From an uncultured Clostridia bacterium (GTDB lineage Bacteria; Bacillota; Clostridia; Oscillospirales; Acutalibacteraceae), in contig CAMNST010000009.1 in the NCBI GenBank assembly GCA_946555465.1, positions 1 through 64,000 of the forward strand: 64,000 nt of DNA, given 5' to 3'. Under the pieces are notes generated by a model, which saw nothing but the letters and a program-made list of their open reading frames with translations, made no database searches and had not been told where the DNA came from. The translations under genes were made by a program, and so were the position numbers. How positions within the stretch are numbered: position 1 is the stretch's first letter; the number at the start of each line of letters is the position of its first letter. Below are positions 14,931 through 27,006 of this stretch, one piece after another.

Positions 14931-15104
14931 GTGTTTATAGGGATTTTTGTATAGATCTTTCTGCGAAATGGCAGCGTTCTAAGCCGCAAGGCTTGAGGTC
15001 AGAGAATGATGTCGTTTTATAAGATTGTTTAAAATTTGTCAAAAATCTCACACATAACAAATTTCGGTTTCAAACCGAACATTACTTTTAACGGAGGTAA
15101 AAAG
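14931..15104 (+). promoter_or_regulatory. Long structured 5' leader of the dockerin giant
   Basis: The leader can fold into at least two hairpins: CTGC...GCAG (14961-14974) and AAGCC-GCAA-GGCTT (14981-14994), a 5-bp stem with a GNRA tetraloop, which may be closed by TTCT...AGAA. The GGAGGT ribosome site is at 15093-15098. I compared it from memory with c-di-GMP, fluoride, SAM, THF and T-box consensus features and saw no match. A regulatory leader is possible but not shown. Confidence 0.35.
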
Positions 15105-18100
15105 ATGAAAGTAAAAGCAAAGAAGTTTTCGCATAAGTTACTTGCTTTATTCATGGCAGTGCTTATGGCGTTAACTTGTTTCAGCGGTGCGTTTTCAGCA
15201 TATGCTGCATCAAAAGATGTAAAATATCTTGATGATGCTGTAGAATATAACGATCTTGCATGGAACGTTTTGTCTGATGAACAAACTGCTACTGCTCTTC
15301 TCGACTATGCTGACGATATGCTTGCAGAGTTCGGCCCGCAGATTGATGCGCTCCTTAAAGGTGCTCTTCCGACCAGCGGTGTTTACAAGTATGATGCAAA
15401 CAAAAGAACCATTGAAATCAATGCCGTAGTTGTTTCTGCTTCAATCAAAGTGTATACACACAGCGTTGATGAAATTCTGGAAACACTTGAAAGCGTTGAA
15501 TCTGTTCTCAGAGATAAGGGTAACCTTCTCGGTGACGCAGGTAACATTCAGTTAGGTTCCACAGGCGGAATGAGAAGAAGCAATACTTCTTCATGCGATA
15601 TTATTAAGGGTATTCTCGGTATTCTCCAGAAAAACTCTGCAGACTACAACGGCAAAGACGTTCTCGGCGAATTCCTTCGCGGCGGTTTTGACCTCGGTAC
15701 TCTTGGTACATTCGTAAAATTAGACATTTACGGCGCAATCGGCGGTCTTCTCGGCTGCGATGCAGGATGGGAATCAAACTCAGTTTATAATATTGTTCAG
15801 TCACTCATCTTCAACAATACAAATTGGTTCACAGATGAAGAAAAAGCAAATTATAAAGCAAATCCTTCAACATTCATCTTTGATGATGTTCTTCTTGAAA
15901 AAATGACAGCAGAACTTCTTCAGAAGATTAATGTACTGGTTACATATCCTGACGGAACAAGTTCAATCTCAAGAAGAGAAGCAATCGACAAGAAAATGGA
16001 TGAAGGCAATATGACCTACAGACAGGCTTGTATCGCTCTCGGATATGATGAGAACCTTGTTTACTCAAAGGAAAATACCGGCAACGTATTATTATTTGTA
16101 TATGGTGCTGATGAAAACGGCGAGGCTGCTTCAAATGCAACAAAGTTAACCATCAACAAAGGTGATAACCTCTTTGATTTCGGTTACAAAGCACTTGACC
16201 TTGCTTGGACAACTGTTCTCGAGCAGACAGTTAAACTTGTTCACGTAAACAATAATGTTGACCGTGGCCACGGCTCAAACTTTGATAATGTATATTATTA
16301 TTGGGCAACAAGCGACGAAGGTAAGCAAATTGTAGGTGCATGGGATCAGAATAATCTTGCTGACATGTACAAGGAATCAAACATCAATGCATGGGCTGAA
16401 GCAAAATATGCAGACTACAGTGCAAAAGATGCTGCTGAATTCTTATCTTGGGTTAGAAATAACTATGAATTTGATCGTACAGTAGCAGAAGGTGCAAAAG
16501 GCATCTGGTCAGACATTGATGAAACAACCTTATTTAATAAGGTAAGATACAGCCCTCTTGCTGACTATGGTTTCAACATGCAGACCGGTCCTATCAACCT
16601 TTATTTCATGCAGACCGGAACAAGCAATCTTGACGCTTTCTTTGAATCATACAGCAACTACAGTTCTCTTGTAGGCGGTTTCAACGATTGTCTTGTTGCT
16701 GCTGTTAAGGATATCTTTGTTCAGAGAGATAATATTGACGGTTCACTTGCTGAATTAGCAACAGTTAACCCATCAACTATTAATGACAATGCTATCATCA
16801 GCATTGTTAATACTCTTGTTGGCAATGCTCTTAAAGTTGTTCAGTATACTGCTGATGCAACAGATAAGAACATTCTTAACGGTTTCTATACAAAGTACGG
16901 CGCATCTGCCGAACTTGCAGAAGCAAACCTTGAAGAAGCAATGCTTCCAATGCTTATTGCCTGCCTCGGTCAGGTTAATCTCGGCAGCGGAAAACTTGAA
17001 AGCATTATCCATCCGGAAGACTGGGATGCTTGCCAGGATGCAGAGGCAGTTATCTACCTTTGCTTAAGAGAATATCTCTCTTACATTCTTCCTGATAAGA
17101 ATTATGACGTTCTTGTAACAAAGAGCGAAACTTCAATCACACCTGCCAAGGCAGGCGCAGATATGCTTCAGGGCGTACTTCTTCCAATGGCTCGTGATGC
17201 TGTTGTTTATGTAATGCAGGGTTATGTTCCTGTTACAGGCACAGACGGTAATGAGTGGAGAGTAGAATATAAGCCTGTTGATGACAGCAATACTTTACTT
17301 CAACTCCTCAACTCTGTAATCTGCTACTACGGCGGCGAATATGATTACAAGAATTCTTCAATCGCTAAGTCAGTAGGCGCTATGGGCGTAGGTGCTCTTC
17401 TCGGTGTATGCTCACCAACAGACGGCACAAGCCTTATCACAACCGATAATACGATTTGGCAGAATATTGACCTTGTTGCAAACCAGCTCCTTCCTGTACT
17501 CGGAACTCTCCAGTATGGCGATTCAGCAAAGAAGGGTCAATTCAGTTCAGAAGATCTTATCTGGAACGATGTCGTTTTAGGTATACTTGATATTGGTAAT
17601 ACTTCGATTCATGACAGCGGTATGGGCGGTGTTTCTAACTTCCTTTACAGACTTCTTACAATCGTATCAGCAGAGCCAATTCAGTCAACTCCTATCGTTC
17701 TTACCATTTATGATGTAGCTGCAGATTTCCTTAACGGTCTCTTCGGTGCTCGTTATAATGGTCAGAGTTTTGACGTTGTAGTTCCTGCAAGAACATCTGC
17801 TCATCCATTTGATGATGTTCTTCAGATTAATGTTATTGCCGGTACCGGCGGAAACAACATCGGTGTAATCGGCAAATTCCTTTGCAACCTTGTAGAATTT
17901 GCAGGCTATGGCACCAGCGGTGTTAACACATATCCTGACTCAATTCTCAGAGGTCTTATGTTCGCTATCGACGCTGTAAACAGTTTCATTCCTGAAGCAA
18001 TTACTTCAATCGGCGAACACGACATTAAGATGGCAACTTCTGAGTTTAAAGACAGTTCTGTTCAGGGCTGTACAACAAACAACGCAGTAAACTCATCTGT

Positions 18101-21100
18101 AACATTTACCAACAACTCAGTTGGTATCAACAATGCTTATGTTGATGGTCTCGGAAATGGTTCATTAAACAACGGTATGGTTGAACAGCTCAGCCGTTAC
18201 TATGTTAAAATTACCAAGGCTGAAATGCCCGGTGCTACAATCACTATGCCTTCGCAGACTGTTGTTGCTCCCGGTGAATCAGTTTCACTTCCGACATCAG
18301 CAAGATACGTACCTGATGAAAACAACTCAACTTCCTACTCTGCAACGATTACATATAACATCTGCAGTGATAAGGAAGGTAAGAATGCTCTTTACTCAGG
18401 TCTTGAAACAACCTGTTATCAGTACTTAACCGGTGCTAAAGGTTGGGAAGATATTGTTTATCCTGCAGACAGAGGCGGTCAGTTAAACACTGCTCTTGAA
18501 GGCGGCAGAACAGCTCATTACCAGACCTTTACAACACAGGGTTACAGATCATTCTCAAGCAGAAACTTCCGTGACGGTAAGTTATATGTTACATATCCTG
18601 AATATATGGTTGTAACAACAAGCAACCTTGCTGCTATTGACAGATTCCAGTTCAGAGTTAACAACGAAAACCTCGTTGGTAGTTCATTCTCAGTAGATGG
18701 TTTCTACTGCTATGATGATACATCTGTTTACGATGATGTTACAGGCGCATATGTTGCTGTTAATATGAAGAACGCTATCCCTGTTTATGACAAGGAAACC
18801 GGCGATCTTATCAAGTACGGTATGTATGACTATAAGATTGACAACGGCGATTGGCAGCGTAACGGCAAGACCGGTTACACTGAGGATGAAATCAACAATG
18901 TTTACAACCAGAATCCAAATGCTAACATTGAAGTAAGAACTCACATTTCTTACACACTTCAGGAAGCAATCGACGCAGGTATCGTTGCTGCATACCACAA
19001 AAACGATGCCGGTGTTATTGAGTATTACTACATGAAGTCAGGCAGCGGTACAAATTATGATACCACACTTGGTCAGGTTTCATTAAGAGGTCCTGTTGAT
19101 GGTATCTATATCAATCAGGGTAAAGTTGCTGACGTTCCTAAGAACGGTTCAAAATATACAACCGACCTCTTCAAGTATGATGGTTCAACTCCTATCCAGG
19201 CCGGTGAATATCAGGTTAAACTTTGTGTTTACAGCAGTTACAACAATGGTAACGGTTCAGGTTCTCTTGATGGCCCCGGAACATGTACCCTCGTTGTAGG
19301 TGATGATGGTTCTGCTACATCACTTAACGCTAAGTACAAAGAACTTTCAGAACTTCTTGCAAATTATCGTACAGAAGACTTTACGGATGCAACTGTTAAG
19401 ACAGACGCAGAAGCAGCACTTATTAATGCTCTTTCTGCTAACTCAGCAGTAATCACTCCAACAAGTGCTATTGCACTTTCAGACCAGACTTATCTTGCTC
19501 CAACCACCACAACTACAACCAGCGAATATGGTGACAAAGCATATAAGCCTTTCAGCGAATCAAACGCAACAACTCTTAATATGCCTATCGGTGTTCGCGC
19601 TGATGCATATGTAGGTGATGGTACAAACGGTGTTGCAGGTTATTACTACTTTGATGCCGCTTGCACAATGCCAATCTACTCAAATGTTCCTCTTGAAGCA
19701 TCTGACGTGACAGATGGCAAAGACCCTGCAGGCAACGCAGTTATCGAAGGCACTCAGGATGATGCCGGCAAGTTCTGGCTCAGAAATACTCCTGTATATG
19801 AAACAGAGTGGAACACAACTACATACCAAAATCCTTGGAGAGAAGTTGTAGTTGATGACAGCGGAAACAAAGTACAGGCAAAGAACGGCAGCGGCGAACT
19901 TCTTTATTCACAGGTTACATATGTATATCGTAACGCATCAAGTGAAAAAGTAAATTCAGACTTCGTATGGTTTGCTAAATTCCCTGCAACAGAGTATAAA
20001 TGTATTGAAAACGATGGCGTAACAGAATATCGTGGTCTCTATACACAGGCTAATGATAAGATTGCTTGGGCTATCGAAAGAGTTTATGACTCAGTAAATA
20101 CCTCTATTGCACAGGATCTCTTTGAAAAGATTTCTCTTGTTAGAAATAACATGAACAACAACAACTTTGAAGTTGTAACATACAACAAGATGGTTGATAT
20201 GGCTAAAGTTGCTGAATCAGGATATACTCTTAACATCACTTATGATTACAAAGAGAATGTTCTTGACGCAGACGGCAAAGTTGTTATGGGTGAAGACGGC
20301 AAGCCTCAGACTGTAACAAAGACTAAGACAGATACAGGCGTTAGATTCAGCCAATACAATGGTTATGTAAATAACAAAGATATCACTATTACAAATACAA
20401 CAACATCATCAACACTTTCATCTGTACAGGTTGAAGAATACTTACGTCTCTTCAATATTTATATGAATAAAGTAGTTGAAAGAGGTTACCTCGGCGATAA
20501 ACTTGAAGCAGAAATCGCTTGTGCTTCAGGCAATGCTCATGATCTCCTCAATGCAACACCTGCTCAGTACAATGAAGCAGGCGAAAAGACAGCAGATGCT
20601 GTTGTAACAAAGACCGCAGACGCTGCAGCACCTGAATTTGGTGCTTGGGATGCAAGCGGTAAACTTGTAAATAACGGTGACGTTGTTTACGCTGACGACA
20701 TCTGGACCGAGTATGTTGATGCTCTTGCTAATGCAGTTAATATTGCCAATATCGGCAATAACAATTATGCTCATGCAACAAAGGCATATTACCAGGCAGA
20801 TGCTAAAGAGTCTTATACAGCACAGGTAACAGATTGTTACAGTGCCGATACAAATCTCCAGAAGGCAGAAATCAAACTTGAAGGCTGCCACACAGTAAGT
20901 GTTGCTGACGTACCTGGTGGTACCGTTGCTATCAACGGTGCAACATATGATAAACCATATGCTGTTACACCTGATACAGAAGTTGTTCTTACTGCAACTG
21001 CAGATGCAAACTACAGATTTGATGGCTTTGAAGGTATTGAACCTGACGAAGAAGGCAACTATGTAGTTAAGGTTAGAAACGCTGACGTAGTAGTTACTCC

Positions 21101-21596
21101 TATCTTCACAAGCGTTGCATCTTCAGGTCATACAGTTACTGCTTCTCTTGTAGTTGCAACTACCCCATCCGGTGCAACAGACAATGTTGCAGTAAACGGT
21201 GATTACACAATCACTGTTTACAACGAAGCAGGTGAAGTTGTTGCAACAGAAACATTTGCAATGGCTAAAGACGCTAATACATTCAGTTTCGAACTTCCTG
21301 CCGGTACTTACACTGCTACAATCGAATCTGCTTACTCATTAATCCGTCAGGATATAACAATTGTTGTTGGCGATTCTGATGTTACCGGTCCTGCAATTCC
21401 AATTATTGCTTGTGACTATGACGGCAGTACAACAATCAGTGGTGGTGACGCTGCAACTGTATATGCAAATGCTGCCGGTGCAGGCGGTCTCTTCTGCGAC
21501 CTTGACGGTAGTGGAACAATCAGCGGTGGTGACGCAGCTGTTGTATATGCTTGCGCTACAGGTACACCTAACCTTGCACCTGTTACTATCGGATAA
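15105..21596 (+). CDS. Giant secreted protein with C-terminal variant dockerin (2163 residues)
   Basis: The start at 15105 is set by GGAGGT seven bases upstream; an in-frame upstream ATG at 15036 lacks a site and would bury the signal peptide. The signal peptide (KLLALFMAVLMALTCF, cut after AYA) is followed by about 1000 residues of helical unknown sequence, then Ig-like or beta-rich segments, an InlB/Big-type repeat near residues 1930-2000, a short Ig-like module (YTITVYNEAGEVV) and a dockerin-like pair near 2103-2157. The two loops, CDYDGSTTISGGDAATVYA and CDLDGSGTISGGDAAVVYA, follow the dockerin F-hand spacing (acidic at 1, 3 and 12) but have Ser at position 5. Dockerins bind cohesins on scaffolds or the cell surface, so it is probably a surface-complex component. 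Codons are strongly biased, suggesting high expression. Confidence 0.85.
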   Translation: MKVKAKKFSHKLLALFMAVLMALTCFSGAFSAYAASKDVKYLDDAVEYNDLAWNVLSDEQTATALLDYADDMLAEFGPQIDALLKGALPTSGVYKYDANKRTIEINAVVVSASIKVYTHSVDEILETLESVESVLRDKGNLLGDAGNIQLGSTGGMRRSNTSSCDIIKGILGILQKNSADYNGKDVLGEFLRGGFDLGTLGTFVKLDIYGAIGGLLGCDAGWESNSVYNIVQSLIFNNTNWFTDEEKANYKANPSTFIFDDVLLEKMTAELLQKINVLVTYPDGTSSISRREAIDKKMDEGNMTYRQACIALGYDENLVYSKENTGNVLLFVYGADENGEAASNATKLTINKGDNLFDFGYKALDLAWTTVLEQTVKLVHVNNNVDRGHGSNFDNVYYYWATSDEGKQIVGAWDQNNLADMYKESNINAWAEAKYADYSAKDAAEFLSWVRNNYEFDRTVAEGAKGIWSDIDETTLFNKVRYSPLADYGFNMQTGPINLYFMQTGTSNLDAFFESYSNYSSLVGGFNDCLVAAVKDIFVQRDNIDGSLAELATVNPSTINDNAIISIVNTLVGNALKVVQYTADATDKNILNGFYTKYGASAELAEANLEEAMLPMLIACLGQVNLGSGKLESIIHPEDWDACQDAEAVIYLCLREYLSYILPDKNYDVLVTKSETSITPAKAGADMLQGVLLPMARDAVVYVMQGYVPVTGTDGNEWRVEYKPVDDSNTLLQLLNSVICYYGGEYDYKNSSIAKSVGAMGVGALLGVCSPTDGTSLITTDNTIWQNIDLVANQLLPVLGTLQYGDSAKKGQFSSEDLIWNDVVLGILDIGNTSIHDSGMGGVSNFLYRLLTIVSAEPIQSTPIVLTIYDVAADFLNGLFGARYNGQSFDVVVPARTSAHPFDDVLQINVIAGTGGNNIGVIGKFLCNLVEFAGYGTSGVNTYPDSILRGLMFAIDAVNSFIPEAITSIGEHDIKMATSEFKDSSVQGCTTNNAVNSSVTFTNNSVGINNAYVDGLGNGSLNNGMVEQLSRYYVKITKAEMPGATITMPSQTVVAPGESVSLPTSARYVPDENNSTSYSATITYNICSDKEGKNALYSGLETTCYQYLTGAKGWEDIVYPADRGGQLNTALEGGRTAHYQTFTTQGYRSFSSRNFRDGKLYVTYPEYMVVTTSNLAAIDRFQFRVNNENLVGSSFSVDGFYCYDDTSVYDDVTGAYVAVNMKNAIPVYDKETGDLIKYGMYDYKIDNGDWQRNGKTGYTEDEINNVYNQNPNANIEVRTHISYTLQEAIDAGIVAAYHKNDAGVIEYYYMKSGSGTNYDTTLGQVSLRGPVDGIYINQGKVADVPKNGSKYTTDLFKYDGSTPIQAGEYQVKLCVYSSYNNGNGSGSLDGPGTCTLVVGDDGSATSLNAKYKELSELLANYRTEDFTDATVKTDAEAALINALSANSAVITPTSAIALSDQTYLAPTTTTTTSEYGDKAYKPFSESNATTLNMPIGVRADAYVGDGTNGVAGYYYFDAACTMPIYSNVPLEASDVTDGKDPAGNAVIEGTQDDAGKFWLRNTPVYETEWNTTTYQNPWREVVVDDSGNKVQAKNGSGELLYSQVTYVYRNASSEKVNSDFVWFAKFPATEYKCIENDGVTEYRGLYTQANDKIAWAIERVYDSVNTSIAQDLFEKISLVRNNMNNNNFEVVTYNKMVDMAKVAESGYTLNITYDYKENVLDADGKVVMGEDGKPQTVTKTKTDTGVRFSQYNGYVNNKDITITNTTTSSTLSSVQVEEYLRLFNIYMNKVVERGYLGDKLEAEIACASGNAHDLLNATPAQYNEAGEKTADAVVTKTADAAAPEFGAWDASGKLVNNGDVVYADDIWTEYVDALANAVNIANIGNNNYAHATKAYYQADAKESYTAQVTDCYSADTNLQKAEIKLEGCHTVSVADVPGGTVAINGATYDKPYAVTPDTEVVLTATADANYRFDGFEGIEPDEEGNYVVKVRNADVVVTPIFTSVASSGHTVTASLVVATTPSGATDNVAVNGDYTITVYNEAGEVVATETFAMAKDANTFSFELPAGTYTATIESAYSLIRQDITIVVGDSDVTGPAIPIIACDYDGSTTISGGDAATVYANAAGAGGLFCDLDGSGTISGGDAAVVYACATGTPNLAPVTIG

Positions 21597-21701
21597 TTTT
21601 TAAAATTATTCAATAAATTTGTGTTTATAGGTTTAAATCAAAAAATTTGTGTTTAGACCCATTTCATCCAATGTTTTGCTTAATGCTTAACATAAAACAC
21701 G

Positions 21702-21729
21702 TTGGCAGAGAGTGAAAACTCTCTGCCAA
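21702..21729. terminator. Strong hairpin between the two dockerin genes
   Basis: TTGGCAGAGAGT and ACTCTCTGCCAA pair perfectly over 12 bp with a GAAA tetraloop. No T-run follows on either strand, so it may act as an mRNA-stabilising or processing hairpin as easily as a terminator. Upstream, TTTGTGTTTA occurs twice (near 21619 and 21650). Confidence 0.55.
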
Positions 21730-21908
21730 TGGTGGAATCTTTATAACAGCCGATTATAAAAGTTTATTTGTACCCAGGCGATATTAATTATTAAAACAAA
21801 AAATAAATTATATTTACTAGTACAAATTTTTCTTACCATATACCGCTTTTATATATTGTGTGTGTTATAAATGATTACTTATTTGTTCTAAAAAACGGAG
21901 GCAGACAT

Positions 21909-23033
21909 ATGTTAAAGAAAACGCGTTTGAAAGATTTTCTTATTCTTAACTTAATTTGTTTGGTAGGGATTGTTTTATTAATCTGTCTGCCTTCAACTGT
22001 CTATGGTGCCCAAGGCACCCTGGGAACTGTTGTGCCTGATATCAGTTGTGCTTACTACGATGCAGACGGAAATGAAGTCGATGGTAATGCACTTACTGCC
22101 GGTTCATATGATATGACGATTAAGTTGTCGGGAACGCAGCAGTTATCAGTTGTTCAGGTAACTGCGTCTCATACAGATGCGGTTACATTTGAAAGCACCC
22201 CCAAAAACCTGATGACTTCAGATTATACAGATATGTCATCTATGGGTTATGTTATTGACGAACAAAACCTTGTATTCGGTTTTGTATCCAATAACAGTGA
22301 TACATCGCTTATCGAAGACAACGCTGTTATAGCAACTTTGGGTGTCACTTTCACTCAGGATTGTGACGCTGCGGATGTAATTCAATTTTCCACAAATCCA
22401 AATGAGACATTTGTTTTGTCTGATTATGCCGATGGCTATAATGACGAATATGCCCTTGTTTCGGAATTTGACGGATATAATGGGGTTCTTTATCAGATGA
22501 CTTCTGATGTTTCTCCGGTTTTGAAAATCGGATACAATGTCAGCGGTTCTATTGTAGTAATGACAGATTCATCCGGTTCCACGAATGGCAGTCCTGTTGG
22601 TGGCGAATATGTTTTTGACATCTACAAAGACGCTGAAAGAACAGATTTGCTTAAATCTGTTAAATCAATAGAAACGATTGATGAAAGTGGTATTAGAAAA
22701 AATACCTTTAACATAGAAGAACTCAATCCGGGTACTTACTATGTAACGCTTTCGTCCAAGTATGCAATTACGCGCAGAGATATAACAATTATCGTTTCCG
22801 ATTCCGATATTGCAGATTATGCAATTCCGATAATCGCCTGCGACTTTGATGAAAGCGGAACGCTCAGCGGCGGTGATGCAGCATATGTTTATGCAAATGC
22901 GGCTGCCGGTGCTGAAGAAAAATCGTTATGTTACGATTTGGATGGCAGCAATACCATCAGCGGCGGTGACGCAGCTGTTGTATATGCTTGCTCATCGGGT
23001 GAATTATCTTATGGTTCTTTAACCATACAGTAA
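21909..23033 (+). CDS. Secreted dockerin protein with a cohesin-like N-terminal domain
   Basis: The ATG at 21909 follows CGGAGG; the longer frame from 21858 has no site. An uncleaved anchor or signal peptide lies at residues 7-33. Residues about 40-185 form a beta-rich domain with features reminiscent of cohesin or bacterial Ig folds (YDMTIKLSGTQQLSVVQVTA, then NAVIATLGVTF). Residues 205-300 repeat the Ig-like module of the upstream giant (TFNIEELNPGTYYVTLSS, RRDITIIVSDSD, IPIIACDFD). The dockerin pair at 311-362 (DFDESGTLSGGDAAYVYA, DLDGSNTISGGDAAVVYA) has the same variant form. A stretch of about 27 bp in the second loop is identical to the upstream gene apart from its start, pointing to recent duplication or gene conversion. 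It could be an adaptor linking cohesin and dockerin partners; the cohesin reading is tentative. Confidence 0.75.
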   Translation: MLKKTRLKDFLILNLICLVGIVLLICLPSTVYGAQGTLGTVVPDISCAYYDADGNEVDGNALTAGSYDMTIKLSGTQQLSVVQVTASHTDAVTFESTPKNLMTSDYTDMSSMGYVIDEQNLVFGFVSNNSDTSLIEDNAVIATLGVTFTQDCDAADVIQFSTNPNETFVLSDYADGYNDEYALVSEFDGYNGVLYQMTSDVSPVLKIGYNVSGSIVVMTDSSGSTNGSPVGGEYVFDIYKDAERTDLLKSVKSIETIDESGIRKNTFNIEELNPGTYYVTLSSKYAITRRDITIIVSDSDIADYAIPIIACDFDESGTLSGGDAAYVYANAAAGAEEKSLCYDLDGSNTISGGDAAVVYACSSGELSYGSLTIQ

Positions 23034-23137
23034 GAATCACCATCCTGAATTATTATAATTCAAATCGAAAATTAATTTTTAAAATAATACGTATTGTTTT
23101 AAAACTCATTTAACTCAAATTTAAAGGGGAAATTTAA

Positions 23138-26089
23138 GTGAAAAAAACATTCAGAAGAACATTGGCTTGTCTTCTTGCTGTTTTAATGGTTGCTTTCTCA
23201 ATGCCTTTTAATGCACTTGCAGCGCAGGTTTGCAGAAACTGGTGGGAAGATGATGGCATCCAATTAAAAGATATTAAAGAAGAGCCGACTTATGTTGGTT
23301 ATAACACAGAAGATGAAGCTAACGATATCTTCGCTTGGTATTTAGGTTTCGGTGATACCATTTGGCTTGGCGGTCCTGATGATCCGGGTCACGAAGATCA
23401 CCGTGACGATTACAAGCCTGTTATCGGTGTAACCGTAACAGATATGGGTACTGCTGATCTTTGGGGTACCTCAAAACTCTATTCAGCCAACAAAGCTTGG
23501 TACACAGATTTCTACGGCGGCAAAACTCATAAAACTTATGAAGAAGTTAAGGCTGCCGGCAGAATCCTTAACCCTGCACAACTTAAGGCAGGTCAGCGTA
23601 TTGCTATCACAGTAGAATTCGGCGGTTTTGACGCACTTTACGGCGGACAGTTTAAAGGTACATTCGATCAAACTGCTCTTTCGGCAGTGAACTTCAAAAC
23701 CACTCCTTCAAGAAGCGATACATGGAAACTTTATCCGGAAAACGGTGCTAACGCTTGGATCACAACAACAGGTGATATGGGCTATGGTGCTTCTGTAAGT
23801 GCTGCAGGTGCTAATACACAAATACAAAATGTTAATGGTTCTACATTCGGTTCTTTCTATATTGCTGTAAACTCAGCCGGACTTGTAAACGGAACTAAGG
23901 GCGGTAACTTCCTTGGCACCGGTCTTGATGATATTAACCAGGCAGCTCGTTCATATGGTAAATACGGTATCATCGGCGGTACAATGACATTTGAAGTTCT
24001 TAAGGACTGTGACCTTTCAGAAGTATTCCGTTTCACACCTTCAGTATTTGGTGTAGATGATGGTACTTACTTTGAACCATACGACGTTTCAACTCTTGGC
24101 GGTAGCAAAACCAATGATCAAACTCAGTGGAGAATTGCTGTTAACAGTACTTCAAACGACGTATTTGCTAACGCTGCTGTAATCTGGACTGATTACGAAG
24201 CAAAACCGGCAGATACACATACACATGACTTTACTGATGCTGTTGCTGTAACAAACAACAACGGTACTCATACAGTAACATGTACTGCTGCTAACTGTGA
24301 CAAGTCAGAAGGCTATCAGGTAACATCTAATTGTACTTATGATGAAGGTAAAGTAACAACTAAACCAACTTGCGGTACAGAAGGCGTTAAGACATTCACA
24401 TGTACAGCTTGCGGTCACACATATACAGAAAAAGTTGCTGCTACTGAAAACCATGCTTGGGATGACGGTACAGTAACAAAGGCTCCGACATGTACAGAAA
24501 AGGGCGTTAAGACCTTTAACTGCACAAATTGTGACGCAACAAAGACAGAAGAGATTCCTGCAACAGGTGTACATACATGGGATGACGGCGTAGAAACAAA
24601 GGCTCCGACATGCGTAGAAAAGGGCGTTAAGACCTTCACATGTACAGTATGTAACGAAGCAACAAAGACAGAAGAGATTGCTGCAACAGGTGTACATACA
24701 TGGGATGACGGCGTAGAAACAAAGGCTCCAACATGCGTAGAAAAGGGCGTTAAGACCTTCACATGTACAGTATGTAACGAAGCAACAAAGACAGAAGAAA
24801 TTGCTGCAACAGGTATTCATACCGAAGTTGAAATTCCTGCAGTTGCTCCAACTTGCGTAAAAGATGGTACAACAGCCGGTGTTAAATGTTCAGAATGCGG
24901 CACAGTTCTTACTGCTCCTCAGGTTGATCCTGCAACAGGTGTTCACACTTGGGGTGAAGGCGTAGTAACAAAGGCTCCTACAATGAGCACTCCTGGTACT
25001 ATGACTTATACATGTACAGTATGTAACGAAGCAACTAAGACAGAAGAAATTGCTGCTCTTGGTGTAGACGTAACAGTTGACACTGCTGACCTCGGCTCTG
25101 TAACTCTTAACGGTGCTGACGTAACAGAAGGTGCAACAGTTAATGTTCCATTCAATTCAGATGTAACTCTTGTTGCTACTCCAAGTGAAGGCGCAACATT
25201 CGTTGGCTGGACTGCAAATGGCACAACTCTCGTATCTAAGGATGCAACATTCGTAACAAAGGCTCTTGCTAATGTTACTTATACTCCTGTATTCTCAACA
25301 ACAGGCGCTACCTCATTCACAGTATCATTTGTTGATGTATTCGGTAACGTAATCAAGACTCAGACTGTAAAGGCTGCTGATGAGATTGCAATTCCTGATG
25401 CTCCTCAGTTTGTTGGCTACAACTTTGTTGGTTGGTCAATGACAGCTGAAGAAATCGCTGCTCTTACATCAGAAGCAGTAATCACTGCTCAGTATGAACT
25501 TGCTGAGACAACATTCACAATCACTGCTACAGACGCTTGCACAATCACTGCAAACGGCGCATCAGCAACAGGCTCACTTGCAGATGTTGCTATGGATGCT
25601 GTTGTAACAGTAACTGCTGAAGGTGCTACAGCTTGGGAAATCAATGGCGTAACTGTTGCTTATGGCGACACTTACAAATTCTTCGCTTCAGCAAATGTTA
25701 CAGTTGTTCCTACATTCGAAACTGCTGTTGAAGCAACTCCAACTGTTGCTGCTGTTTCATTTGAAAGAATGGCCGGTTCACACAAAGTAACATTTGTTGC
25801 AACACGTTCAATGACTGATGACTGCACATATGTAAGTGCTGGTTTCATTTATGGTAAAGACCTTGCAGTTAAAGATCTTACACTTGATATGGTAGGTAAG
25901 AAGGGCTCTAACGCATCATCAGGTACAGTAAAGGCTATTTACTGCGCAACTGATGCTGAACAGTTCATGCTTAACTACGGTGTATCTGCTGCTACAGGTA
26001 CTGCTTCTGCAAGAGCATTCCTTGCTTATGTAGATGCTGCCGGCGATACTCAGGTTGTATATGCTGCTCCTCAGGTTTATACTTATTAA
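23138..26089 (+). CDS. Secreted surface protein with cysteine-pair repeats and InlB-like repeats (983 residues)
   Basis: It starts at a GTG after AAAGGGGA, with a signal peptide cut after NALA. Residues 30-370 form an unknown, probably beta-rich domain. Residues about 380-640 hold six repeats of about 41 residues of the type HTWDDGV..KAPTC.EKGVKT followed by FTC..C...TKTEEI, each with three cysteines in a C...CxxC pattern; such repeats are common in clostridial surface proteins, perhaps metal- or disulphide-stabilised. Then come two InlB B-repeat/Flg_new-like modules (VPFNSDVTLVATPSEGATF..GW and FVDVFGNVIKTQTV...GYNFVGW), and a C-terminal 120-residue beta domain ending QVVYAAPQVYTY. No dockerin, LPXTG or SLH anchor was seen. 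Function is unknown; ligand binding or adhesion is a guess. Confidence 0.82.
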   Translation: MKKTFRRTLACLLAVLMVAFSMPFNALAAQVCRNWWEDDGIQLKDIKEEPTYVGYNTEDEANDIFAWYLGFGDTIWLGGPDDPGHEDHRDDYKPVIGVTVTDMGTADLWGTSKLYSANKAWYTDFYGGKTHKTYEEVKAAGRILNPAQLKAGQRIAITVEFGGFDALYGGQFKGTFDQTALSAVNFKTTPSRSDTWKLYPENGANAWITTTGDMGYGASVSAAGANTQIQNVNGSTFGSFYIAVNSAGLVNGTKGGNFLGTGLDDINQAARSYGKYGIIGGTMTFEVLKDCDLSEVFRFTPSVFGVDDGTYFEPYDVSTLGGSKTNDQTQWRIAVNSTSNDVFANAAVIWTDYEAKPADTHTHDFTDAVAVTNNNGTHTVTCTAANCDKSEGYQVTSNCTYDEGKVTTKPTCGTEGVKTFTCTACGHTYTEKVAATENHAWDDGTVTKAPTCTEKGVKTFNCTNCDATKTEEIPATGVHTWDDGVETKAPTCVEKGVKTFTCTVCNEATKTEEIAATGVHTWDDGVETKAPTCVEKGVKTFTCTVCNEATKTEEIAATGIHTEVEIPAVAPTCVKDGTTAGVKCSECGTVLTAPQVDPATGVHTWGEGVVTKAPTMSTPGTMTYTCTVCNEATKTEEIAALGVDVTVDTADLGSVTLNGADVTEGATVNVPFNSDVTLVATPSEGATFVGWTANGTTLVSKDATFVTKALANVTYTPVFSTTGATSFTVSFVDVFGNVIKTQTVKAADEIAIPDAPQFVGYNFVGWSMTAEEIAALTSEAVITAQYELAETTFTITATDACTITANGASATGSLADVAMDAVVTVTAEGATAWEINGVTVAYGDTYKFFASANVTVVPTFETAVEATPTVAAVSFERMAGSHKVTFVATRSMTDDCTYVSAGFIYGKDLAVKDLTLDMVGKKGSNASSGTVKAIYCATDAEQFMLNYGVSAATGTASARAFLAYVDAAGDTQVVYAAPQVYTY
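24569..24814 (+). repeat. Tandem 123-bp repeat inside the surface protein gene
   Basis: Two adjacent units (24569-24691 and 24692-24814) are nearly identical in DNA, differing at only a few bases, while flanking units have diverged. Each encodes one 41-residue cysteine-pair repeat. This is the sign of a recent unequal duplication and predicts copy-number variation between strains. Confidence 0.85.
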
Positions 26090-26115: not shown

Positions 26116-26220
26116 ATGAAAGAGACTTATACAAAGCCAATTTCAAAGATTGACGAATTTGAATCTGTTGATGTATTTACTGCATCAAGAGCAGAACAGT
26201 TACCAGGAGAAGATGACTAA
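26116..26220 (+). CDS. 34-residue peptide, end of the surface-protein operon
   Basis: An ATG with a near-perfect AAGGAGGA eight bases upstream opens a 34-residue frame beginning MKETYTKPISKIDEF and ending SRAEQLPGEDD. It lies 26 bp after the surface-protein stop and right before a strong terminator, so it is the last gene of that transcript. It has no signal peptide, no cysteine and an acidic tail. From memory it resembles the many short clostridial peptides of the form K.Y.KP.I....F...DVI.TS, whose role is unknown; a modified-peptide precursor is one idea, but no modifying enzyme is encoded nearby. Confidence 0.7.
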   Translation: MKETYTKPISKIDEFESVDVFTASRAEQLPGEDD

Positions 26221-26253
26221 TTGTCATTTATCCGATTGTTAACAGTCAATCGG

Positions 26254-26282
26254 GGGGACGGAGAAATCCGTCCCCTTTTTTT
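26254..26282 (+). terminator. Terminator after the 34-residue peptide
   Basis: GGGGACGGA and TCCGTCCCC form a 9-bp GC-rich stem with a GAAA tetraloop followed by eight T. A second, weaker hairpin CCGATTG...CAATCGG lies just upstream and overlaps it by a few bases. Confidence 0.92.
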
Positions 26283-26283
26283 A

Positions 26284-26313
26284 TTGACTAAAATGCCCTG
26301 ACTGTGATATAAT
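26284..26313 (+). promoter_or_regulatory. Promoter of ncRNA copy 1
   Basis: TTGACT and a consensus TATAAT lie 18 bases apart. The spacer ends in CTGACTGTGA, which is the same in the promoter of copy 2. Confidence 0.85.
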
Positions 26314-26319
26314 AATTTT

Positions 26320-26486
26320 GCGACAAAAAGTTATTAATATTTGTAAATTAAGTATACTATTTTTATCTCTTGATAAAAATGCATGCTTTAATTCAGTATA
26401 CTTTTTTACAAGTTTGAATTAATAACTTTGTGTCGCAGCAAACGAAGCATGCGTTTTTAATGCGTGGCTTCGGCTGCGCATTTTCT
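26320..26486 (+). ncRNA. Structured non-coding RNA, tandem copy 1
   Basis: About 165 bases run from the predicted start to a terminator, with no plausible reading frame. P1 pairs 26320-26338 with 26418-26436 (18 of 19). P2 pairs AAGTATAC (26350-26357) with GTATACTT (26396-26403). P3 is the hairpin ATTTTTATC-TCTT-GATAAAAAT (26359-26380). GCATGCTT in the bulge (26381-26388) is fully complementary to AAGCATGC (26445-26452) outside P1, so a pseudoknot can form. The 3' end is a 10-bp UUCG hairpin (26459-26482) followed by TTTT. Copy 2 keeps the same architecture with different helix sequences. I do not recognise it as 6S, tmRNA, SRP, RNase P or T-box RNA. Confidence 0.8.
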
Positions 26487-26507
26487 GTTTTATGAACAAA
26501 AATATAT

Positions 26508-26537
26508 TTGACTAAATTGCGCTGACTGTGATATAAT
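26508..26537 (+). promoter_or_regulatory. Promoter of ncRNA copy 2
   Basis: TTGACT and TATAAT are again 18 bases apart, and most of the spacer matches the copy 1 promoter, including CTGACTGTGA. Confidence 0.85.
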
Positions 26538-26542
26538 AAATA

Positions 26543-26710
26543 CGCCAAATATAATTGAATCATTTTATTGTAGTAAAAGTGTGTTTTTTTATCCTTGATA
26601 AAAATGCATGCTCTATTAAACACATGCTTTTATTGCAATATGTGTTCAATTATGTTTGGCGACAGTTGGGGCGTGCGTTTTTAATGCGTGGCTTTGGCTG
26701 CGCATTTTTT
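26543..26710 (+). ncRNA. Structured non-coding RNA, tandem copy 2
   Basis: P1 pairs 26543-26559 with 26645-26661 (17 bp with one G-U) although its sequence is unrelated to P1 of copy 1, so pairing is conserved by compensatory change. P3 (TTTTTATC-CTT-GATAAAAA) and the following ATGCATGCT bulge are nearly unchanged. The pseudoknot is kept with G-U pairs: GCATGCTC (26606-26613) against GGGCGTGC (26669-26676). The terminator hairpin (26683-26706, UUUG loop) ends in six T. A ribosome site and ATG of the next gene follow within about 25 bases, so this copy could be a free RNA or a leader controlling that gene. Confidence 0.8.
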
Positions 26711-26730
26711 ATTTTCAGGAGGGTCATAAA

Positions 26731-27006
26731 ATGGCTGAAAAAACGTATTCATATGACATTGAGGGCAAAGATTTGCACGAATTCTTCAAACTGCACAATC
26801 AACTCAACGACAGGTTGGGTATTCTCTCCAACAAAATTGAACTGCTGAATGTTCTGCAGGGGTGCTGTGTTGAACTGGAGGCATATAACAACAAAAACTA
26901 CGACCTGCTCTGTATGGCAATCGGCGATGCGCTGGATTATACTGAAGAACTGACTGCATTTTCAGATAAATGCTATCAGCATATGCAGCATATGCTCGGC
27001 AAATAA
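26731..27006 (+). CDS. 91-residue helical protein of unknown function, downstream of the ncRNA pair
   Basis: The ATG at 26731 follows AGGAGGG, and an earlier in-frame ATG at 26656 lies inside ncRNA copy 2 without a ribosome site. The protein is soluble, mostly helical and amphipathic (LHEFFKLHNQLNDRLGILSN, then AIGDALDYTEELTAF), with three cysteines and no recognised motif. No separate promoter is visible between the ncRNA terminator and the ribosome site, so transcription probably depends on readthrough from copy 2. A strong terminator follows. I do not recognise the family. Confidence 0.72.
   Translation: MAEKTYSYDIEGKDLHEFFKLHNQLNDRLGILSNKIELLNVLQGCCVELEAYNNKNYDLLCMAIGDALDYTEELTAFSDKCYQHMQHMLGK

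Follow-up and report, generated by a model that had tools for sequence, protein, structure and literature searches.

What are the two short structured RNAs that lie in tandem in this clostridial DNA, and what is their relation to the genes around them? We examined them within the window, i.e., the whole analysed stretch of 64,000 nucleotides. The original prediction placed two RNAs of about 165 nt at 26284 to 26710, each with its own promoter, and this layout holds: TTGACT begins at 26284 and 26508 and TATAAT at 26308 and 26532, with a spacing of 18 nt in both copies (Table 1). Copy-to-copy comparison likewise bears out the near-identity of the P3 hairpin and the bulge that follows it, as well as of the terminator region, and the complementarity between this bulge and an outer segment (referred to as X) is present twice, pairing GCATGCTT with GAAGCATGCG in copy 1 and GCATGCTC (26606-26613) with GGGGCGTGCG (26668-26677) in copy 2. 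The long basal helix P1 does keep its pairing, but it turns out to be only the lower half of one long stem, with 36 and 38 pairs in the two copies under a constrained fold. Its sequence, described as unrelated between the copies, is largely free above the base, although the base itself recurs in a few forms. A terminator was assigned to each copy and is found at both, but the U-tract of copy 1 is interrupted (TTTTCTGTTTT), and its terminator therefore looks weaker than that of copy 2. The folds have z-scores of -9.05 (copy 1) and -7.47 (copy 2), with none of 200 dinucleotide shuffles as good. Absent from the prediction was a Shine-Dalgarno sequence and a 91-codon ORF (26731-27006) directly 3' of copy 2; it also missed the size of the family, its class-wide spread, the antiterminator role of the pseudoknot strand, and the leader position of most copies.

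Table 1. Features of the tandem RNA pair and the gene behind it (positions in the window).
Feature	Positions	Strand	Basis
Copy 1 promoter, TTGACT-18-TATAAT	26284..26313	+	sequence match
Copy 1 long stem, 5' arm (P1, hinge, P2)	26320..26358	+	constrained fold
Copy 1 P3 hairpin, TTTTTATC/GATAAAAA	26360..26379	+	fold
Copy 1 conserved bulge GCATGCTT, pseudoknot 5' strand	26381..26388	+	pairing and cis covariation
Copy 1 long stem, 3' arm (P2, P1)	26395..26436	+	constrained fold
Copy 1 segment X (GAAGCATGCG), pseudoknot 3' strand and antiterminator 5' strand	26444..26453	+	pairing and cis covariation
Copy 1 intrinsic terminator ATGCGTGGC-TTCG-GCTGCGCAT, short U-tract; 5' half is antiterminator 3' strand	26460..26484	+	
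Copy 2 promoter, TTGACT-18-TATAAT	26508..26537	+	sequence match
Copy 2 long stem, 5' arm	26544..26584	+	constrained fold
Copy 2 P3 hairpin	26586..26604	+	fold
Copy 2 conserved bulge GCATGCTC, pseudoknot 5' strand	26606..26613	+	pairing and cis covariation
Copy 2 long stem, 3' arm	26622..26660	+	constrained fold
Copy 2 segment X (GGGGCGTGCG), pseudoknot 3' strand and antiterminator 5' strand	26668..26677	+	pairing and cis covariation
Copy 2 intrinsic terminator, run of six T; 5' half is antiterminator 3' strand	26684..26710	+	
Shine-Dalgarno AGGAGGGT of the 91-codon gene	26717..26724	+	sequence
91-codon gene led by copy 2	26731..27006	+	14 places in genome; predicted helical hairpin

Upstream of the RNA pair, three large ORFs occupy 15036-26089, the third with CxxC repeats; two of them end in what we take to be dockerin repeats. 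A 34-codon ORF at 26116-26220, with AAGGAGG upstream and no match in Pfam or NCBIfam, ends shortly before a terminator that precedes copy 1.

The RNAs were not recognised as any class in the original prediction, which considered an undescribed family, and the Rfam scans agree. At the gathering thresholds of Rfam 15 the window contains only three tRNAs, and among the 23 matches listed in a permissive scan of 26230-26730 none came near its threshold, the best being CRISPR-DR65 at 25.4 bits (43 needed) and tsr26 at 23.6 bits (141 needed). For 6S RNA no match was listed at E<=10 in the same segment. A scan of 12 distant loci of the family described below returned only four tRNAs, and we rejected a known Rfam class on the grounds that neither the window copies nor these 12 loci match one at strict or permissive thresholds. 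At three of the 12 (L312, L118, and L120) the RNA has a tRNA gene some 80-250 nt upstream.

The pair belongs to a large family. Allowing up to two mismatches, the 18-mer TTGATAAAAATGCATGCT occurs 24 times in the 2.2-Mb source genome (reversed control, 0), and reading the surroundings of these occurrences gave 34 RNA copies, as did a search of the same genome with a covariance model (referred to as R1) built from ten of its copies. Thirty of the 34 are complete and fold with 27-39 long-stem pairs, the other four being truncated or degenerate and left out before folding. The true number may exceed 34, since assembly contigs end inside units of RNA and 91-aa gene (G000:C2:1-299 and G000:C14:1-51). 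At L022 (end 3678) and L028 (end 3903), truncated copies start inside the core (TAAAATACATGCTC), tight against coding-looking upstream sequence, which would fit a loss of the 5' half.

Matches to R1 are present in 30 of 37 genomes of the genus (source genome included), in 10 of 23 genomes from other genera of the order, and in 92 of 391 genomes (54 of 223 genera) of a class sample in which only seven candidates per genome were scored with R1. In a phylum sample of 299 genomes, some of them of the same class, a match at E<=1e-5 was found in the source genome only. Further, 57 of 114 stretches picked by the exact 18-mer alone were passed on to the R1 search, which matched 41 of 43 contigs from Clostridia (the two without a match are both labelled Lachnospiraceae) and none of 14 from unrelated lineages, among them Lactococcus, Rhodoferax, Psychrobacillus, Paenibacillus, and Muricauda. 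Among the named matches are Clostridium sp. CAG:217, Ruminococcus sp., and MAGs labelled Oscillospiraceae, Ruminococcaceae, or 'Eubacterium sp.'; ruminant guts are the source of many. We left out one of 94 matches in the relatives (33 bits, opposite strand) and eight of 44 in the exact-18-mer contigs (partial, cut off, or on the same contig as another locus); the remaining copies are not all independent, because some named contigs may duplicate other genomes in the sample. The core 17-mer also occurs in three viral contigs; in two of these, the IMG/VR contigs L310 and L311, the RNA copy is cut off at the contig end.

Family members share a common anatomy, in the 5' to 3' order promoter, P1, hinge, P2, P3, bulge, return strands of P2 and P1, a short linker, X, U-run, and terminator. 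The consensus strands are UUUUUAUC/GAUAAAAA for P3, GCAUGCUC for the bulge, and GGAGCAUGCG for X, which is variable. Over 222 copies (one of 223, in which the landmarks were not found, was left out) the long stem averages 35.7 bp (sd 3.7), divided into a P1 of 17.9 bp and a P2 of 17.8 bp by its largest internal loop, the hinge, which lies near the midpoint: within 0.4-0.6 of the stem in 172 copies, where uniform placement would give 65. Close to the hinge, the strand contains AATA in 165 of 223 copies, an enrichment over the 107 in shuffles. The few forms in which the first ~8 nt of P1 are kept include GCCAAA/TTTGGC and GCGACA/TGTCGC. Outside the source genome, 159 of 195 copies have a promoter scoring at least 10 of 12 to TTGACA/TATAAT, compared to 2 of 94 in a control stretch, and in 144 of these 159 the -10 element ends exactly 3 nt before the start of the model, which suggests that the RNA should begin at P1.

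Many further homologues with covariation in the long stem and the pseudoknot, as a genuine family would imply, were found in Clostridia by covariance model. In 66 class-level sequences, whose alignment was itself fitted to the structure, both partners change in 40 of 46 modelled stem pairs; both-side cells number 569 vs. 165 in shuffles, and the score is 0.545 vs. 0.193. As the pseudoknot was absent from the model used, its covariation provides an independent test. In the same sequences its columns are 92.5% paired (87.0% in shuffles, 0 of 500 as high) and its covariation score is 0.293, against a shuffled value of 0.191 (no shuffle of 500 as high) and no more than 0.09 when the columns are slid; two of the five measures are weak, namely both-side changes (5 vs. 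3.7, reached in 62 of 500 shuffles) and pair types (17 vs. 14.4, reached in 14 of 500). In strand permutations that treat related copies as exchangeable (two of 123 copies left out, landmarks not found), the duplex energy of the bulge with its own X is better than with permuted X, at z -5.1 in the source genome (n=30), -12.5 in other species of the genus (n=80), and -5.5 in other genera of the order (n=11). The control pairing of the bulge with Y, the 5' half of the terminator, gives z -0.5, 0.3, and 0.6 in those three sets, and the antiterminator pairing of X with Y gives -2.0, -3.5, and -2.2. Cis covariation is therefore strong for the pseudoknot and modest for the antiterminator. Compensations can also be seen by eye, in the antiterminator at L127 (GGAGUC/GACUUC) and L132 (GCAAAUG/CAUUUGC) and in the pseudoknot at L125 (GCAAAUUCC/GGAGUUUGC). 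Pseudoknot, antiterminator, and terminator share strands, and are thus mutually exclusive structures of an expression platform.

Most copies are followed by a gene. Among the 195 copies outside the source genome, 136 are followed by a Shine-Dalgarno-preceded ORF of at least 40 aa that begins 20-89 nt (median 26) past the RNA, compared to 10 of 93 copies for divergent ORFs upstream of the RNA; 59 have no such ORF behind them, and a few of those counted do not look genuine (L324, L338). In the genus and order set, this holds for 66 of 93 copies from outside the source genome (within 80 nt), and in the class set for 70 of 102 (within 90 nt, a few spurious-looking). Copies in distant genera that carry one or few of them also precede genes. 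Such a structured RNA in the 5' leader of a gene is the placement characteristic of riboswitches, and it applies both to these 136 copies and to all 13 testable copies of the 91-aa gene discussed below.

The downstream proteins are diverse. Signal- or membrane-like N-termini, counted by a simple rule as raw frequencies, are present in 38 of 66 and 35 of 70. With five spurious-looking ORFs of the 70 in the class set left out before the Pfam scan, LRR_5 is found in 8 of 66 (genus and order) and 14 of 65 (class) proteins, i.e., 22 of 131. Among the matches listed (the best 25 of 62 families for the 66 proteins and the best 25 of 41 for the 65), there are also PIN7 (4 in the genus and order set), HTH_3 (4 and 1 in the two sets), dockerin (3 and 1), zinc ribbons, DUF6809, Cu_amine_oxidN1, and others. 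Since these genes share no pathway (22 of 131 with LRR_5, the rest scattered), they suggest no ligand. At L158 and L160, from other species, only the start of a PIN7-like gene seems to be left behind the RNA (ATGGCTTGC..., then loss of frame or a stop), which suggests that leaders outlive their genes; at L158 the -35 element of the next tandem copy overlaps this relic, as judged by eye.

The 91-aa gene behind copy 2 is found at 14 places in the source genome, 12 of them full length. The RNA lies directly upstream in all 13 copies with a complete 5' end, the fourteenth being cut by a contig end. The gene was found in 0 of 39 other genomes searched, and a pattern search of wider genome contigs (62 stretches), which detects close relatives only and may pass over the source genome itself, confirmed no relative. 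The protein in the window has no Pfam or NCBIfam match; two paralogue queries gave sub-threshold Pfam matches, and there were weak PHROG matches, pointing to no convincing family. A structure model from 12 paralogues predicts a two-helix hairpin (residues 12-45 and 55-90; mean pLDDT 84.4, pTM 0.70). In the 11 full-length copies inspected, homology between units stops at the stop codon. Third-codon identity is 0.83 among pairs with >93% protein identity, while over all 66 pairs identity is 0.73 in the stem above P1 (0.72 shuffled) and 0.78 and 0.81 in the P1 arms (0.75 shuffled). With identities near the shuffled level, the stems seem to diverge no more slowly than synonymous positions.

We propose that each element is probably a self-contained riboswitch-like transcription attenuator. 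Building on what the computation shows, namely which strands pair and covary in cis, where the promoter lies, how genes are placed, and where the hinge sits, we infer that RNA polymerase would start at the base of the hairpin, and that P1 and P2, two near-equal struts of ~18 bp, would form and fold back at the midpoint hinge. That the bulge and X sit at opposite ends of the stem may seem an objection to their pairing; two equal folded struts, however, would bring them together, and a ~36-bp stem with a hinge at its midpoint could fold back in this way to dock the pseudoknot, with the bulge beside X just outside P1. In the docked state, X would be held in the pseudoknot, the terminator hairpin would form, and transcription would stop (presumed OFF). 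Undocked, X would pair with the 5' half of the terminator (consensus CAGUUGGAGC with GCUUCGGCUG) and block it, allowing readthrough into the Shine-Dalgarno sequence and ORF ~26 nt further on (ON). The struts would set distance only, which may explain why sequence is free to drift in them as long as they still pair. Each tandem copy retains a promoter and a terminator of its own, which is unusual for a riboswitch.

The choice between the two states would be set by a signal, for which a small molecule is our first guess, held with limited confidence; a protein is less likely, an RNA slightly less so again, and a physical cue improbable. Cyclic di-GMP was rejected as a general ligand: GGDEF is present in 23 of 60 genomes, with one in the source genome, and is missing from five RNA-rich relatives that are 90-97% complete (G015, G004, G016, G001, and G032, with 13, 9, 8, 6, and 6 RNA copies, respectively), so that a diguanylate cyclase is absent where a general signal would require it. 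A peptide encoded upstream of the switch seems unlikely, with a Shine-Dalgarno-like stretch, a start codon, and at least six codons beginning before nt 100 in 20 of 223 copies. The same combination at nt 100-140, around X and the terminator, is present in 76 of 223, and ribosome binding at X is a possible alternative input, because X resembles a Shine-Dalgarno sequence.

Several described systems resemble this attenuator in part. The preQ1, ZTP, c-di-GMP-II, and SAM-II riboswitches are pseudoknot riboswitches that act on transcription termination, and the elements found here share with them the 5' leader position, a pseudoknot competing with the antiterminator or terminator, and a gene immediately downstream. 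Unlike them, our elements have no Rfam match, enclose the sensor in a hinged ~36-bp stem of mostly free sequence, have a promoter locked to P1, and reach 34 copies per genome with no common pathway. T-box leaders occur in many copies per genome and choose between terminator and antiterminator. The likeness extends to both copy number and this choice, but no T-box match was found in Rfam, and the downstream families listed have no aminoacylation or amino-acid theme. Type III toxin-antitoxin loci consist of tandem structured RNAs with a pseudoknot, then a terminator and a gene. Here, in contrast to ToxIN/CptIN (PMC4627078), with which the tandem pseudoknotted RNAs, the terminator, and the gene are shared, the genes are very diverse, every RNA has its own promoter, and the RNA is ~165 nt rather than a short repeat; no ToxN/AbiQ-like endoribonuclease is among the best 25 of 62 and best 25 of 41 downstream Pfam families. 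The MRSC-65-2 motif, as described in PMC11109978, is a long single stem with strong covariation and dozens of copies per genome; it is similar in its covarying stem and copy number, and is set apart, going by that description, by the promoter, terminator, antiterminator, pseudoknot, and narrow start-codon spacing present here. A set of 3,161 structured-RNA candidates from human microbiomes (PMC8040213) derives from overlapping source communities, and this family could be among its unlabelled candidates. In the literature searched, including text of PMC11109978, PMC8632094, and PMC8040213 (supplements aside), we found no description of this RNA; an earlier, unlabelled listing is possible.

The elements thus apparently represent an undescribed, large gene-control RNA family in gut Clostridia. 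It looks like an abundant regulatory RNA of gut and rumen Clostridia, present in about a quarter of the class genomes sampled (92 of 391), where it precedes surface and accessory genes coding for BspA-type LRR, lipoprotein-like, PIN, and HTH proteins. If true, the hinged two-strut architecture would be a new design of pseudoknot switch, with stems free to drift, and a search for its ligand would be feasible with short synthetic transcripts.

Some loci carry an antisense segment in place of a gene. At 11 source-genome loci, ~20-30 nt antisense to the RNA 3' end are centred 41-101 nt past the RNA. Over all loci except five of 229 (short or masked), antisense scores of at least 12 occur at 15 of 65 ORF-less loci (sense 0, shuffled queries 0) and at 5 of 159 ORF-bearing loci (sense 0, shuffled 1), several of the latter looking like modules misfiled through a spurious ORF. 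The clear modules outside the source genome (L322, L361 twice, L362, L365, L369, L324, L338, and L360) all belong to one other family of the class, f42. For 10 of the 11 source-genome loci (the type B locus L012 was left out), modules pair at -28.0 kcal/mol with RNAs leading the 91-aa gene (type A), at -19.9 with RNAs of the module-bearing loci (type B), and at -26.1 with the rest; the difference between types A and B has a label permutation p of 0.0003. Antisense action on the own RNA was rejected, as modules pair worse with it than with other RNAs (mean rank 21.1 of 30, null 15.5, p 0.018), and a reading of the type B segments as coding for conserved peptides was given up after the frames had been inspected by eye.

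These modules raise the question of whether the type B antisense binds type A leader 3' ends and sets their terminator in trans. The presence of 11 modules in the source genome and similar ones in f42, and their preference for type A RNAs over their own, would fit such a switch. This is nevertheless unlikely to be how the switch is worked, and it is not general, as no convincing module was seen in the genus and order set tested. Further, simple drift of the type B leaders away from the consensus could also yield the pairing difference; an antisense beyond its locus's own terminator needs readthrough for expression; and in some cases (L019, L012, and L356) it is the module's own leader type that it matches. 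An extended scheme is a two-tier regulon, in which type A leaders would control protein genes by hinged-hairpin docking, and type B loci would have swapped the gene for an antisense that hits type A leaders and largely spares type B leaders, so that one set of switches, once on, would turn the other off in trans, with the hairpin as a general docking ruler of a new sensor architecture. We regard this scheme as doubtful. The modules offer a direct test of RNA-on-RNA regulons.

Alternatively, the terminated ~165-nt RNA may itself be the product, the copies being paralogous trans-acting small RNAs and the downstream genes receiving incidental readthrough. Every tandem copy does have its own promoter and terminator, stand-alone copies exist (copy 1 of the window and three of four tandem copies in L122), and a dispersed paralogous sRNA family, FopS, is present in Rfam. 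We consider this reading improbable given that the RNA lies a median of 26 nt before a Shine-Dalgarno-led ORF in 136 of 195 copies and before 13 of 13 91-aa genes with a complete 5' end, a placement also seen in distant genera with one or few copies; moreover, the stand-alone copies L158 and L160, with their decayed PIN7-like gene start, look by eye like leaders without their former gene. Less probable still is that the element is a selfish or mobile repeat, either MITE-like or a recombination hairpin of the attC type, whose spread places it before genes by chance. Its dispersal in 34 copies, the tandem duplications, the sharp ends of units at promoter and stop codon, the contig ends inside units, and the stem differences among units with 91-aa proteins of 93-100% identity could all be read in this way, and the text of PMC11109978 interprets the many-copy, long single-stem motif MRSC-65-2 as mobile. 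The co-orientation with genes, the narrow spacing to the start codon, the three strand-sharing pairings, two of which covary in cis, the promoter locked to the RNA start, and the presence of one or few copies in many genomes argue against it, and no transposase or integrase was noticed on reading the flanks. Nor were terminal repeats or a target duplication noticed in the flanks inspected, except at L016, where near-identical inverted terminator hairpins (GGGCTGTAAAAAACGAAAGTTTTTTACAGCCC) are present on both flanks of the unit and may bear on how units are gained.
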